A stretch of 52,194 nucleotides of DNA. Origin: Flavobacteriales bacterium. GTDB lineage: Bacteria; Bacteroidota; Bacteroidia; Flavobacteriales_D; UBA2798. The position numbers were made by a program, and so were the translations under genes. The notes under the pieces were generated by a model. The model ran no database searches. It saw nothing but the letters and a program-made list of their open reading frames with translations, and was not told the DNA's origin. The DNA lies in NCBI GenBank assembly GCA_019694795.1, contig JAIBBF010000020.1, positions 1 through 52,194 of the forward strand. The letters run 5' to 3'. Every line of letters starts with the position of its first letter. The first letter of the stretch is position 1. Positions 49,173-52,194 of the stretch are shown here, piece by piece.

Positions 49173-49415
49173 ATGAAAGCAATTGCAGAAATAAGCCTGT
49201 ATCCTTTAAAGGATTCCTTTATCCCGCCCATTGATGCATTTATTGAAGCATTAAACAAGTACGATTCACTTGAAGTTAGCACCAATGCATTAAGTACAAT
49301 GATTAAAGGGGAATATGATGTGCTAATGGAAAAGTTGACGAAAGAAATCAAATTGCATTTTGAAGGAGGAATTCCATCCGTCTTTGTTTTAAAAATTCAC
49401 GCCATTGCCGAATAA
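49173..49415 (+). CDS. YkoF/MTH1187-like thiamine-binding protein
   Basis: An 80-residue protein with the MTH1187/YkoF ferredoxin-like fold pattern: KAIAEISLYPLKDSF strand, a helix with FIEALNKYDSLEV, a TMIKGEYDVLMEKL segment and a last strand SVFVLKI. YkoF binds thiamine or its pyrimidine in Bacillus, and this small form is usually annotated as thiamine-binding. The site residues cannot be confirmed by eye. It precedes the NadR-like kinase gene with an 11-base overlap and lies just before a TPP riboswitch and TonB receptor, which supports a role with thiamine. It is divergent from plsC. Confidence 0.65.
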   Translation: MKAIAEISLYPLKDSFIPPIDAFIEALNKYDSLEVSTNALSTMIKGEYDVLMEKLTKEIKLHFEGGIPSVFVLKIHAIAE

Positions 49416-49938
49416 AAAACCCATACGAATAGCAGTGACGGGTCCTGAATCTACAGGTAAAACAACCCTGGCACTTGCATTATCCCAAGAGTTAAATGCT
49501 GTTTATGTTCCTGAATTTGCCCGGGAATATTTAACGGACCTTCATCGCGAGTATACTATACAAGATTTAACTAAAATTGCAGAAGGACAGAATAAATTAA
49601 TCGAAGCATCTTTGAAAAATGATTGCGATTATGTGGTTGTGGATACGGATATGACGGTGATGAAAATCTGGAGTGAATTTAAGTATCAAACATGTGATGA
49701 ATCCATTTTAGATGCGTATCAAAAGCAGGAATTTGATTTATATATTTTATGTGGCACTTCGATCGAATGGGAGTATGATGAATTAAGAGAGCATCCGCAT
49801 TTAAGAGATTATTTTTATATGGTTTATAAAAACGAGTTGAAATTGCAGAAACGAAATTTTCTGGAGGTGGATGGCTCTGTGAAAGAGCGAGTTCAAATGG
49901 TTCTGGAAAAAATTTCATCTCAGAACTTGCACAATTGA
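49405..49938 (+). CDS. NadR-like P-loop kinase, candidate thiamine kinase
   Basis: A 177-residue P-loop NTPase: Walker A GPESTGKTT at residues 13-21, EFAREYL (substrate-region motif found in NadR ribosylnicotinamide kinases), then CDYVVVDTDMTVMKIW for the Walker B-like Asp. It matches the kinase domain of NadR without the nucleotidyltransferase part. In NadR the domain phosphorylates nicotinamide riboside. Next to a thiamine-binding-type protein, a TPP riboswitch and a TonB receptor, phosphorylation of thiamine or a precursor is an attractive alternative, but it is inference. The start is most likely TTG at 49405, inside the end of the previous gene, so translation is coupled. Confidence 0.75.
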   Translation: MPNKKPIRIAVTGPESTGKTTLALALSQELNAVYVPEFAREYLTDLHREYTIQDLTKIAEGQNKLIEASLKNDCDYVVVDTDMTVMKIWSEFKYQTCDESILDAYQKQEFDLYILCGTSIEWEYDELREHPHLRDYFYMVYKNELKLQKRNFLEVDGSVKERVQMVLEKISSQNLHN

Positions 49939-49958
49939 ATAATCTATTGATAATTTTG
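49927..49958 (+). promoter_or_regulatory. Promoter of the TPP-riboswitch/TonB receptor unit
   Basis: TAATTTTG at 49951-49958 matches the TAnnTTTG box, with a TTG at 49927-49929 twenty-one bases upstream. The promoter overlaps the end of the kinase gene, so the riboswitch would be transcribed from its own start and not only by readthrough. Confidence 0.6.
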
Positions 49959-49967
49959 TCTCACAAT

Positions 49968-50064
49968 TACACGGGGTGCCTTAATACGAAGGGCTGAGAT
50001 CATACCCGTTTCCCGTTAGCTTTTCGGGAAGAACCTGATCAGGGTAATGCCTGCGTAGGAATAA
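49968..50064 (+). ncRNA. TPP riboswitch (THI element)
   Basis: The conserved blocks of the thiamine pyrophosphate riboswitch are present in order: ACGGGGTGCC (49971-49980), GGCTGAGA, ACCC, an extra P3 hairpin (TCCCG / CGGGA), GAACCTGATC and GGGTAATGCCTGCGTAGGA. It lies 65 bases before the TonB receptor ATG. The expression platform is not obvious; a weak stem AACAAAA / TTTTGTT (50063-50069 and 50089-50095) may be part of it. By family knowledge TPP binding lowers expression of the downstream uptake gene. Confidence 0.95.
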
Positions 50065-50129
50065 CAAAAGCAGAAAGAAATAAGGTTGTTTTGTTGACAT
50101 GTCTCAGTGTTGGCTTAATAATTTAAACG

Positions 50130-52194
50130 ATGAAAAAAACAGTAATGATTTTCATGGGTATGTTGTTATACCTATCCATGAACGCACAATGTGTTTTATC
50201 GGGTACGATTTTCGATGAAACAAAAAAACCTTTAACAGGTGTCAGCATTCATCTCCAAAACACACAAATGGGTACCACCAGTGATGCAGAAGGAAAATTT
50301 CGTTTGACAAAAATTCCAAAGGGCATCTATACCATTGTTTTCTCCATGGTGGGTTATGAAACGCAAAACCATAAAATCGAATTAAGTAATCAAATTTCCG
50401 ACCTGACCATTCAGCTAAAATTATCGGTCAACCAATTGGAAGAATTTACCATTGAAAGTACCAGGGCAGATGAGAAAACAGGAATTGCATTTACTAACGT
50501 CGACAAATCTTCCATTGAAAAAAATAACCTCGGAGTCGATTTGCCTTATCTTTTGGATCAAACGCCGTCGGTAGTAGTTACCTCCGATGCAGGAACAGGT
50601 ATTGGCTATACAGGAATCCGTATACGGGGAAGTGATCCCACGCGAATTAATATGACCATTAACGGAATTCCACTCAACGATGCTGAATCGCAGGGAACCT
50701 ATTGGGTCGATTTACCCGATTTTGCTAGTTCTGTAGATAATATACAAATACAACGAGGGGTGGGTACATCCACCAATGGAGCAGGAGCTTTTGGCGGTAG
50801 CGTGAATCTTCAAACAAATACAGTAAATGAAAAACCATATGCTTCCTTCGGGAATTCATTTGGTTCATTTAATACACTTCGCAATAACTTGAAAGTAGGA
50901 ACAGGATTAATTGATGGCAAATTTTCATTTGATGCACGTCTTTCTTCTTTAAAATCGGATGGATATATTGACAGAGCATTTTCCGATTTGAAATCTTTCT
51001 ATACTTCATCTGCTTGGTTTGGAAAAAAATCTTCAGTCCGTTTGAATATCTTTTCAGGTAAAGAACGCACCTATCAGGCATGGGGAGGTGTTCCATACGA
51101 TTCACTCGAGACCAATCCTACTTTTAATCCGTATTCCTATAAAAATGAAACGGACAATTATTGGCAAACCCATTATCAGCTTTTTTATAATCAACAATTC
51201 AAAGAAAAATGGTTTGCCAATATCGCACTACACTATACCCGCGGATATGGCTATTATGAGCAATACAAAACAGATAAATCATTTTATGAAATCGGAGTCC
51301 CTGATCCTGTCATTGGTGGCGATACGATTTTGTATGCCGATATGATTCAGCAGAAATGGCTCGATAATCATTTTTTTGGAACAGTTTATAGTTTGCGTTT
51401 TCAACCAAATGAAAAATTAAATTTAGTTGCCGGAGGTGGTTGGAATGAATATCGCGGTTATCATTACGGAAGAATTATTTGGTCAGAAATTTCATCCGGT
51501 GTAGAAAAAGATCACGAATTCTACCGCGATACAGCCACAAAACGCGATGCAAATGTGTACCTGCGCGCTAATTACGATTTCAATGAAAAATTGTCCTTCT
51601 ACATCGATGTTCAGGAGCGATTGGTGTCCTACACGTTTTTAGGATTTGGAGTGTTGTCTAATGACTCCGTTCAAACGGTGAAATACAATTTTTTTAATCC
51701 CAAGGCTGGAATCAGTTATTCATTGTCCAAACAGCATGCAGTTTATGCATCTTATGGGAGAGGAAACAAAGAACCGAACCGCGATGATTTTGTTTCATCC
51801 CGACCAGGTACTTATCCCAAACCGGAACAAATGGATGATATAGAAGCAGGTTATCGTTTTCGTTCCGGCAAACTCAATGTTGGGATTAATATTTATTATA
51901 TGATTTATAAAAATCAATTAGCGCTAACCGGAAAAATTAATGATGTGGGGAATTACATCCGTACCAACATCGATAAAAGTTTTCGCCGGGGGGCAGAATT
52001 AGATTTAAAGTGGCAAATTCATAAGCGGTTATCCTGGGCCGGAAATATTACGCTGAGTCAAAACAAAGTAGTACAGTACAAAGAATTTATCGATAATTGG
52101 GATACATGGTCACAAGATACCATTGAATATAAAAATACAGAATTGGCATTTTCTCCTTCGGTTATCGGCGGACAGGAATTAACGTTTAACCTAT
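50130..52194 (+). CDS. TonB-dependent outer-membrane receptor, probable thiamine uptake (partial)
   Basis: The gene runs off the right edge: 688 codons are visible from the ATG at 50130. A signal peptide (MKKTVMIFMGMLLYLSMNAQ) is followed by a carboxypeptidase-D-like N-terminal domain (about 20-105, SGTIFDETKKPLTGVSIHLQ and GTTSDAEGKFRLTKIPKG), the plug domain (about 110-235, TPSVVVTSDAGTGIGYTGIR, MTINGIPLNDAESQGTYWVD, RGVGTSTNGAGAFGGSV) and the start of the beta barrel with a plausible strand pattern. It lies directly after a TPP riboswitch, so the cargo is most likely thiamine or a precursor. A PnuT-type inner-membrane transporter may follow outside the window. Confidence 0.9.
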   Translation, partial: MKKTVMIFMGMLLYLSMNAQCVLSGTIFDETKKPLTGVSIHLQNTQMGTTSDAEGKFRLTKIPKGIYTIVFSMVGYETQNHKIELSNQISDLTIQLKLSVNQLEEFTIESTRADEKTGIAFTNVDKSSIEKNNLGVDLPYLLDQTPSVVVTSDAGTGIGYTGIRIRGSDPTRINMTINGIPLNDAESQGTYWVDLPDFASSVDNIQIQRGVGTSTNGAGAFGGSVNLQTNTVNEKPYASFGNSFGSFNTLRNNLKVGTGLIDGKFSFDARLSSLKSDGYIDRAFSDLKSFYTSSAWFGKKSSVRLNIFSGKERTYQAWGGVPYDSLETNPTFNPYSYKNETDNYWQTHYQLFYNQQFKEKWFANIALHYTRGYGYYEQYKTDKSFYEIGVPDPVIGGDTILYADMIQQKWLDNHFFGTVYSLRFQPNEKLNLVAGGGWNEYRGYHYGRIIWSEISSGVEKDHEFYRDTATKRDANVYLRANYDFNEKLSFYIDVQERLVSYTFLGFGVLSNDSVQTVKYNFFNPKAGISYSLSKQHAVYASYGRGNKEPNRDDFVSSRPGTYPKPEQMDDIEAGYRFRSGKLNVGINIYYMIYKNQLALTGKINDVGNYIRTNIDKSFRRGAELDLKWQIHKRLSWAGNITLSQNKVVQYKEFIDNWDTWSQDTIEYKNTELAFSPSVIGGQELTFNL

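Follow-up and report, generated by a model that had tools for sequence, protein, structure and literature searches.

How does a bacterium that cannot make thiamine (vitamin B1) keep hold of the thiamine that it imports? The question is raised by a locus from a member of the Flavobacteriales, in which a gene for a YkoF-like protein, a gene for a NadR-like kinase, a thiamine pyrophosphate (TPP) riboswitch and a gene for a TonB-dependent receptor follow one another on the plus strand. The locus lies at the right end of the window, that is, of the whole stretch of DNA that was analysed, which consists of bases 1-52194 of contig C20 in a draft genome of 3.45 Mb (124 contigs, 99.9% complete).

The kinase has 177 residues (49405..49938, plus strand). 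Annotation by family name alone would make it a nicotinamide riboside kinase. Gene content and gene linkage instead point to thiamine, and from these we infer the substrate: the protein is predicted to be a non-orthologous thiamine kinase, EC 2.7.1.89, that forms thiamine monophosphate (TMP) from imported thiamine, a reading to which a probability of about 0.77 is assigned. A first-pass annotation of the locus had already proposed a kinase that traps imported vitamin by acting on thiamine and not on nicotinamide riboside. That idea is well supported by what was found in other genomes; two further points, that the layout is uncommon and that a PnuT gene might follow the receptor, did not hold. 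The layout itself, with the YkoF-like gene overlapping the kinase gene ahead of riboswitch and receptor, was confirmed by Pfam and Rfam matches and by the open reading frames, and it is not a chance arrangement, since the same one is found again in many genomes.

Proposed pathway

The setting would be a thiamine scavenging locus in an organism without de novo B1 synthesis, as judged by the lack of ThiC. Thiamine would pass the outer membrane through the TonB receptor and the inner membrane through a PnuC-family carrier, which is encoded elsewhere in this genome and beside the kinase in most relatives. The YkoF-like protein would bind the vitamin. The NadR-like kinase would convert thiamine to TMP, which is thereby trapped, and ThiL would convert TMP to TPP. 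The riboswitch lies where the kinase gene ends and would have a promoter of its own, so that TPP would shut off the receptor only and leave the binding protein and the kinase expressed.

Gene content in the order and the class

The order sample comprises 40 genomes, the window's own included, and 35 of them have a completeness of 90% or more and a contamination of 5% or less. The kinase is present in 33. A PnuC-family transporter is present in 34, including all 33 with the kinase; in the remaining genome (G014) the contig ends inside the PnuC gene, and its genus-mate G003 has the kinase in the part that is lost. ThiL, the enzyme that acts on TMP, scores over its cut-off in 38 of the 40. This includes 32 of the 33 kinase genomes, to which G036 can be added with a ThiL split over two contigs, while G014 has a remote match only.

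Thiamine pyrophosphokinase (TPK) was found in none of the 40 genomes and ThiK over its cut-off in none, with weak partial matches in G007 and G016. ThiC occurs in five (G007, G008, G022, G032, G034), all of them lacking both kinase and PnuC, and in these five the TPP riboswitch lies upstream of ThiC on the ThiC strand, in G008 before thiS-thiC. Six genomes have ThiE over its cut-off, namely the five with ThiC and G013 (78% complete, no kinase or PnuC match). None of the 33 kinase genomes does, and 19 of them have no match to the ThiE model at E 0.001. ThiC is thus found in 0/33 genomes with the kinase versus 5/7 without it (Fisher p 3e-5, ancestry ignored). Because 33 genomes keep ThiL without ThiC, TPK, ThiK or a ThiE over cut-off, none of the genes searched other than the kinase is a candidate for supplying TMP.

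The same result bears on the idea that the kinase acts on a salvaged thiamine precursor, either hydroxymethylpyrimidine or hydroxyethylthiazole. Several relatives do have a TenI/ThiE-like gene next to the receptor, and synteny places one there in the window's own genome too. Joining the two halves of thiamine needs ThiE, however, and with its distribution among the kinase genomes as just described this explanation is very improbable.

The class sample comprises 105 of 392 phylum genomes, in 55 genera. A genome was counted as kinase-positive at 155 bits or more, and three split matches (G329, G401, G407) were added. Weaker matches and matches that bear an adenylyltransferase domain, such as that in G227, were counted as negative, as was G392, whose single-domain kinase stands among the NadR rows in the kinase tree. 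Neither TPK nor ThiC is found in 54 of the 83 positive genomes; eight have ThiC only, five TPK only and 16 both. TPK is present in 21 of the 22 negative genomes, and the last one, G377, has ThiC. Every class genome in the sample therefore has TPK, the kinase or ThiC, as would be expected if kinase and ThiL together do the work of TPK.

By genus, 42 of 55 have the kinase without TPK, 10 have TPK without the kinase, and three are exceptions: g32 has both, g33 has TPK in one of four genomes, and g73 has neither. Statistics counted per genome ignore shared ancestry, an effect that counting by genus lessens and does not remove.

These distributions also bear on the explanation that the family name suggests, in which the protein is an ordinary nicotinamide riboside kinase working with PnuC, and its place near a TPP-controlled receptor is nothing but an old neighbourhood. 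In the order the kinase goes with a lack of ThiC and in the class with a lack of TPK, a pattern for which NAD metabolism gives no account. ThiL would, moreover, be left without a known source of TMP in 33 genomes.

Gene neighbourhood in relatives

The full gene order in relatives is YkoF, PnuC-family transporter, kinase, TPP riboswitch and receptor, and parts of it are missing in many loci. Counted on the kinase strand in the 33 order loci, PnuC lies within 800 nucleotides upstream in 24, YkoF lies upstream in 14, and riboswitch and receptor lie downstream in 15. The corresponding numbers for 80 named loci are 53 with PnuC, seven with YkoF and 41 with the riboswitch downstream, in 40 of which the receptor comes immediately after the switch. 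The named and order groups overlap, since at least six contigs (L131, L132, L138, L154, L155, L194) appear in both, and many of the 80 are cut short by contig ends. A further 43 loci from the class and phylum, nine of which fall outside the main kinase clade described below, include 29 with PnuC, seven with YkoF and 18 with the riboswitch. A riboswitch placed after the kinase is thus an ordinary layout, found in 15/33 and 41/80 loci, and was wrongly described as uncommon.

Two relatives show variants of the locus. In G003 a single frame of 397 codons directly behind YkoF encodes both the PnuC and the kinase domain. In G002 a second TPP riboswitch stands ahead of YkoF.

Where the riboswitch is away from the kinase, it still precedes a receptor similar to that of the window (16/16 order genomes). 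Adjacent and distant cases taken together, this is true of all 31 kinase-bearing order genomes with a TPP match. The two other kinase genomes, G027 and G038, gave no TPP match.

Loci of bifunctional NadR look different. PnuC is adjacent in 12 of 13, and none of the 13 has a TPP riboswitch, a YkoF gene or a downstream receptor; five of these loci are Pfam-confirmed, the others being called from frame length and domain spacing. If the window kinase were an ordinary nicotinamide riboside kinase, such features would not be expected to set its loci apart. Moreover, seven genomes (G086, G109, G183, G219, G223, G239, G368) hold both kinds, a NadR-type protein and the kinase, in separate loci, so that nicotinamide riboside is probably served separately there.

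Sequence, structure and phylogeny of the kinase

The kinase matches the Pfam family AAA_28 (E 6.8e-28). It also matches the NadR model TIGR01526 at E 1.1e-21 and 77.5 bits, where the full-length cut-off is 341, and only over model positions 164-322 of 325. The adenylyltransferase domain of bifunctional NadR was not found: a Pfam search at E 1 gave no CTP_transf_like match. At E 1, the NCBIfam matches of the kinase do not include the ThiK model TIGR02721, and its Pfam matches do not include the TPK/ThiN/Tnr3 model PF04263; neither model has a match in the window's genome.

The closest solved relatives are NadR kinase domains, which favours an ordinary nicotinamide riboside kinase. A profile built from 29 kinase relatives ranks NadR structures first (1lw7, E 2.9e-24). 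The predicted fold, with a mean predicted local distance difference test score (pLDDT) of 96, has NadR 8x7f as its best structural match (Z 21.8, root mean square deviation 2.2 over 176 residues, 22% identity). In fold and P-loop kinase skeleton the protein agrees with the ribosylnicotinamide kinase domain of NadR. It shares with the NadR structures 1lw7, 8x7f and 6gye the fold, the P-loop, D80, R128 and the pairing with PnuC. It differs from NadR in lacking the adenylyltransferase domain, which argues against the ordinary nicotinamide riboside kinase, and also in its separate clade, its conserved W89 and P14, and its thiamine neighbourhood. Taken together with gene content and neighbourhood, an ordinary nicotinamide riboside kinase is unlikely.

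In a tree of 99 kinase rows, 77 kinases form one clade (95/78). All rows with a TPP match at the locus are inside it, and all 13 NadR rows are outside. The window kinase sits in a subclade of 62 rows (100/99). Few alignment columns differ between kinase and NadR: P14 stands against mostly A, A39 against mostly G, and W89 against mostly Y, in a comparison that left out L253 (a long branch) and nine kinase rows beyond the 77-row clade. These differences are compatible with a new acceptor and prove nothing. Residues conserved per class gave no clean signature that separates the groups.

Several fusions and other occurrences of the kinase were seen. In family f17 a DUF4301 gene follows the kinase (L220:8183-9727, L222:8471-10009), and a Pfam-checked fusion of the two is found in L211:7769-9889; other frames of about 700-800 codons look similar. 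DUF4301 has weak similarity to UDP-glucose pyrophosphorylase, and this partner yielded no function for the kinase. The kinase is also fused to an aldose 1-epimerase in G109 (L243:6663-8108) and to a GNAT acetyltransferase in G026 (L034:8021-9007). Records titled Saccharospirillaceae, Sphingomonadales and Pseudomonadales (L138, L179, L199) carry the kinase; at least the title of L138 is probably wrong, as L138 matches a G024 contig of this order in length.

The PnuC carrier and evidence against a thiamine kinase

A number of observations weigh against a thiamine kinase. The conserved columns of the kinase are mostly common to NadR (G18/K19, E37, R40, D80, R128 and mostly D125). The 77-row clade has a support of 78 in the Shimodaira-Hasegawa approximate likelihood ratio test (SH-aLRT), slightly below the starred threshold, and nine further single kinase rows lie outside it. 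Several kinase loci, among them five PnuC-kinase loci of family f15 (L221, L235, L240-L242), have no TPP riboswitch, YkoF or well-scoring receptor within the 16 kb examined. YkoF adjoins the kinase in a minority of loci only, although the outcome that the first-pass annotation had named as a refutation, a lack of linkage of the two genes to thiamine genes in other genomes, did not come about.

Gene content has its exceptions as well. ThiC is present in 24 of the 83 kinase-positive class genomes, so that the kinase also occurs in likely prototrophs. In genus g32 all 25 genomes have TPK; 20 of them have the kinase in addition, 16 of these also ThiC, and five lack the kinase. The genome-wide searches for ThiL, ThiE and PnuC were confined to the 40 order genomes.

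The carrier adds a further difficulty. The only PnuC-family match in the window's genome is on contig C39 (L095:6005-6646), unlinked to the kinase. It scores over the cut-off of the nicotinamide riboside transporter model TIGR01528, and together with the PnuC of the same-genus genome G001 it groups in the NadR-linked PnuC clade (100/99), which fits a nicotinamide riboside carrier. Both facts are what would be expected if the kinase, too, acted on nicotinamide riboside. A single clade for all kinase-linked PnuC proteins was rejected by the approximately unbiased test (p-AU 1.6e-5), with or without the copies of the window's genome and G001. Since the PnuC tree is mixed, carrier and kinase have changed partners. 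The tree was tried as a separator of thiamine from nicotinamide riboside carriers and fails to separate them; no specificity is claimed from it. The PnuC of the window's genome may carry thiamine, nicotinamide riboside or both.

One way to accommodate this carrier is a kinase of dual specificity, for thiamine and nicotinamide riboside, which would explain why the lone PnuC in the window's genus is of the NadR-linked kind. This is a special case of the thiamine kinase reading, and the odds of the two are not exclusive. Besides the placement of the carrier and the mixed tree, it has in its favour that no bifunctional NadR was seen in the window's genome (G000), where there is one match and a second, weak match whose place is not listed. 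To make NAD from nicotinamide mononucleotide would nevertheless need a further enzyme, and dual specificity is rather unlikely.

The TPP riboswitch and its regulation

The aptamer of the TPP riboswitch (THI box, 49962..50078, plus strand) matches all 105 positions of the Rfam model RF00059 with 43.9 bits and E 4.5e-7, and is the sole TPP match in the genome. A default Rfam scan of the window reports no riboswitch, the gathering score of RF00059 being 54.3; a scan by E-value finds it. Within the order 38 of 40 genomes have a match at E 0.001 and 13 of 40 reach the gathering score. Default annotation therefore under-calls TPP riboswitches in this order, because the gathering score misses most of them.

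A model built from relatives, R1, scores the window aptamer with 77 bits; the window and most order TPP matches are among the 30 TPP rows that went into it, so that it matches those loci by construction. R1 is independent of the named and class loci, apart from those whose contig also supplies an order locus. A simple regular expression for TPP riboswitches found 6 of 29 known loci and was dropped in favour of R1.

A promoter-like element lies directly upstream of the aptamer. The sequence TAATTTTG (49951..49958, plus strand) has the form TAnnTTTG of a -7 box and belongs to a likely promoter of the riboswitch transcript. A possible -33 TTG of a Bacteroidota-type promoter (49927..49929, plus strand) lies inside the 3' end of the kinase gene, giving TTG-N21-TAATTTTG as read by eye. 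The pattern TTG-N-TAnnTTTG is what we take to be the Bacteroidota promoter consensus.

The box is enriched near aptamer starts. From 80 nucleotides before to 10 after the start it occurs in 60 of 75 TPP matches, where first-order Markov resamples would lead one to expect 4.8. Of these boxes, 54 end 0-5 nucleotides ahead of the modelled start. The longer pattern TTG-N17-23-TAnnTTTG occurs in 27 of 75, versus 0.7 expected. The 75 matches come from 74 sources, and some are the same contig twice, so that not all are independent. Of 169 loci, 14 have the box ahead of the kinase domain, and five have the full TTG pattern there. Before the YkoF-like gene of the window, no TTG/TAnnTTTG pattern was found. 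It seems that promoter and aptamer belong together as a fixed unit and that transcripts begin with the first helix.

With a promoter-like box in this position, transcription of the receptor most likely starts separately, at the aptamer. This agrees with the earlier proposal that TPP control is limited to the receptor, and suggests that TPP acts on the receptor alone, YkoF and kinase being transcribed from further upstream. Both the direction and the level of the regulation are what we infer from this arrangement. Folded at minimum energy, 49960-50140 shows no greater stability than shuffled sequences (z -0.71), and the switch may work on transcription or on translation.

The YkoF-like protein

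The YkoF-like gene (49173..49415, plus strand) encodes a single-domain protein of 80 residues from a thiamine-binding family. It contains the start codon of the kinase gene, a TTG, and overlaps that gene by 11 nucleotides. The protein scores 28.3 bits against the Pfam model Thiamine_BP PF01910 (E 1.8e-6), over the cut-off of 24.9, and 16.9 bits against NCBIfam TIGR00106, far under the cut-off of 54.7. Its family profile matches the YkoF structures 1s7h and 1s99 as well as MJ1052. No signal peptide was seen by eye.

YkoF binds thiamine, and family membership suggests that the window protein could serve as a thiamine carrier. It belongs by profile to the same sequence family as Bacillus YkoF (1s7h, 1s99). 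That protein has two domains in a chain of 200 residues, whereas the window protein has one and is encoded beside the kinase.

The receptor and the genes beyond the contig end

The TonB-dependent receptor (50130..52194, plus strand) has Plug, barrel and CarbopepD_reg_2 domains over cut-off. Its reading frame runs past the contig end at 52194, so that the C-terminus is lost. As a TonB receptor behind a TPP riboswitch it is predicted to be an outer-membrane thiamine receptor, and it is called OMthi/omr1-like from this riboswitch context and not by comparison with BT2390.

A search by synteny for a PnuT gene after the receptor found none. Behind the receptor of G001 come a convergent TMP-TENI gene, a PcrB-type synthase and a phosphopantetheinyl transferase-like gene, and further on a protein of 438 residues that is 93% identical to its counterpart in the window's genome. 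Contig C54 of the window's genome starts inside the same TMP-TENI gene and continues in the G001 order. Because of this synteny, the gene after the window receptor is most likely TMP-TENI, a TenI/ThiE-like gene, and not PnuT; the sole PnuC, as noted, is on another contig.

The TMP-TENI gene scores far under the ThiE cut-off. Divergent ThiE/TenI-like genes of this kind, convergent to the receptor, occur in genomes without ThiC and without a ThiE over cut-off (L114:1-330 on C54 of the window's genome, L032:4714-5379, L033:4757-5386).

Comparison with known systems

The thiamine uptake operon of Bacteroides thetaiotaomicron consists of OMthi, pnuT and tnr3, according to PMC5613172, where Tnr3 is named thiamine pyrophosphorylase. 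Common to that operon and the present system are a TPP riboswitch, a TonB receptor, a PnuC-family carrier and a phosphorylating enzyme. In place of Tnr3 there is a NadR-like kinase here, and the second phosphate would be left to ThiL. YkoF is an addition, and the receptor seems to have a promoter of its own. Tnr3 is presumably an enzyme of the TPK type.

ThiK and TPK/ThiN do what the window kinase is predicted to do: they turn thiamine into a phosphate ester. Neither model matches the window kinase, and neither enzyme is over cut-off in the 40 order genomes. To these two families of thiamine-phosphorylating enzymes the kinase would add a third, not orthologous to either.

Parts of the system have been described before. 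ThiK, ThiM and ThiN are listed as signature B1 salvage enzymes in a reconstruction of gut vitamin pathways (PMC6593275), and PnuC homologues linked to TPP have been described in Bacteroides (PMC6281302) and Helicobacter (PMC2258182). In a Baltic metatranscriptome, omr1 and pnuC dominate the B1 expression of Bacteroidetes (PMC12442306). A 2025 survey of marine genomes describes genomes of Flavobacteriales and Cytophagales that have omr1 and ThiL and lack key enzymes of biosynthesis; it covers thiK, and its accessible sections name no thiamine kinase for these two groups (PMC12236431). A NadR-like thiamine kinase was not proposed in any title or abstract opening found in the open-licence literature, which leaves most subscription journals and bioRxiv preprints outside, and priority is not proven.

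Implications

Many environmental Bacteroidota are unable to make B1 and depend on thiamine from others. The genomes examined here have the receptor and ThiL, and between the two there is a gap in the pathway, with no known family found that converts thiamine to TMP.

On balance, a broader picture is favoured, though held less firmly than the assignment of the window kinase. Thiamine kinases derived from NadR, widespread in the class, would replace TPK, and would form a vectorial trap with a carrier of the PnuC type (fused to the kinase in one genome) and one of the YkoF type. Facilitated diffusion would be made one-way by the formation of TMP, and TPP would gate only the receptor.

If the kinase does act on thiamine, calls of auxotrophy and models of B1 flux for these groups would change, and a family otherwise named after NadR would gain a new function.

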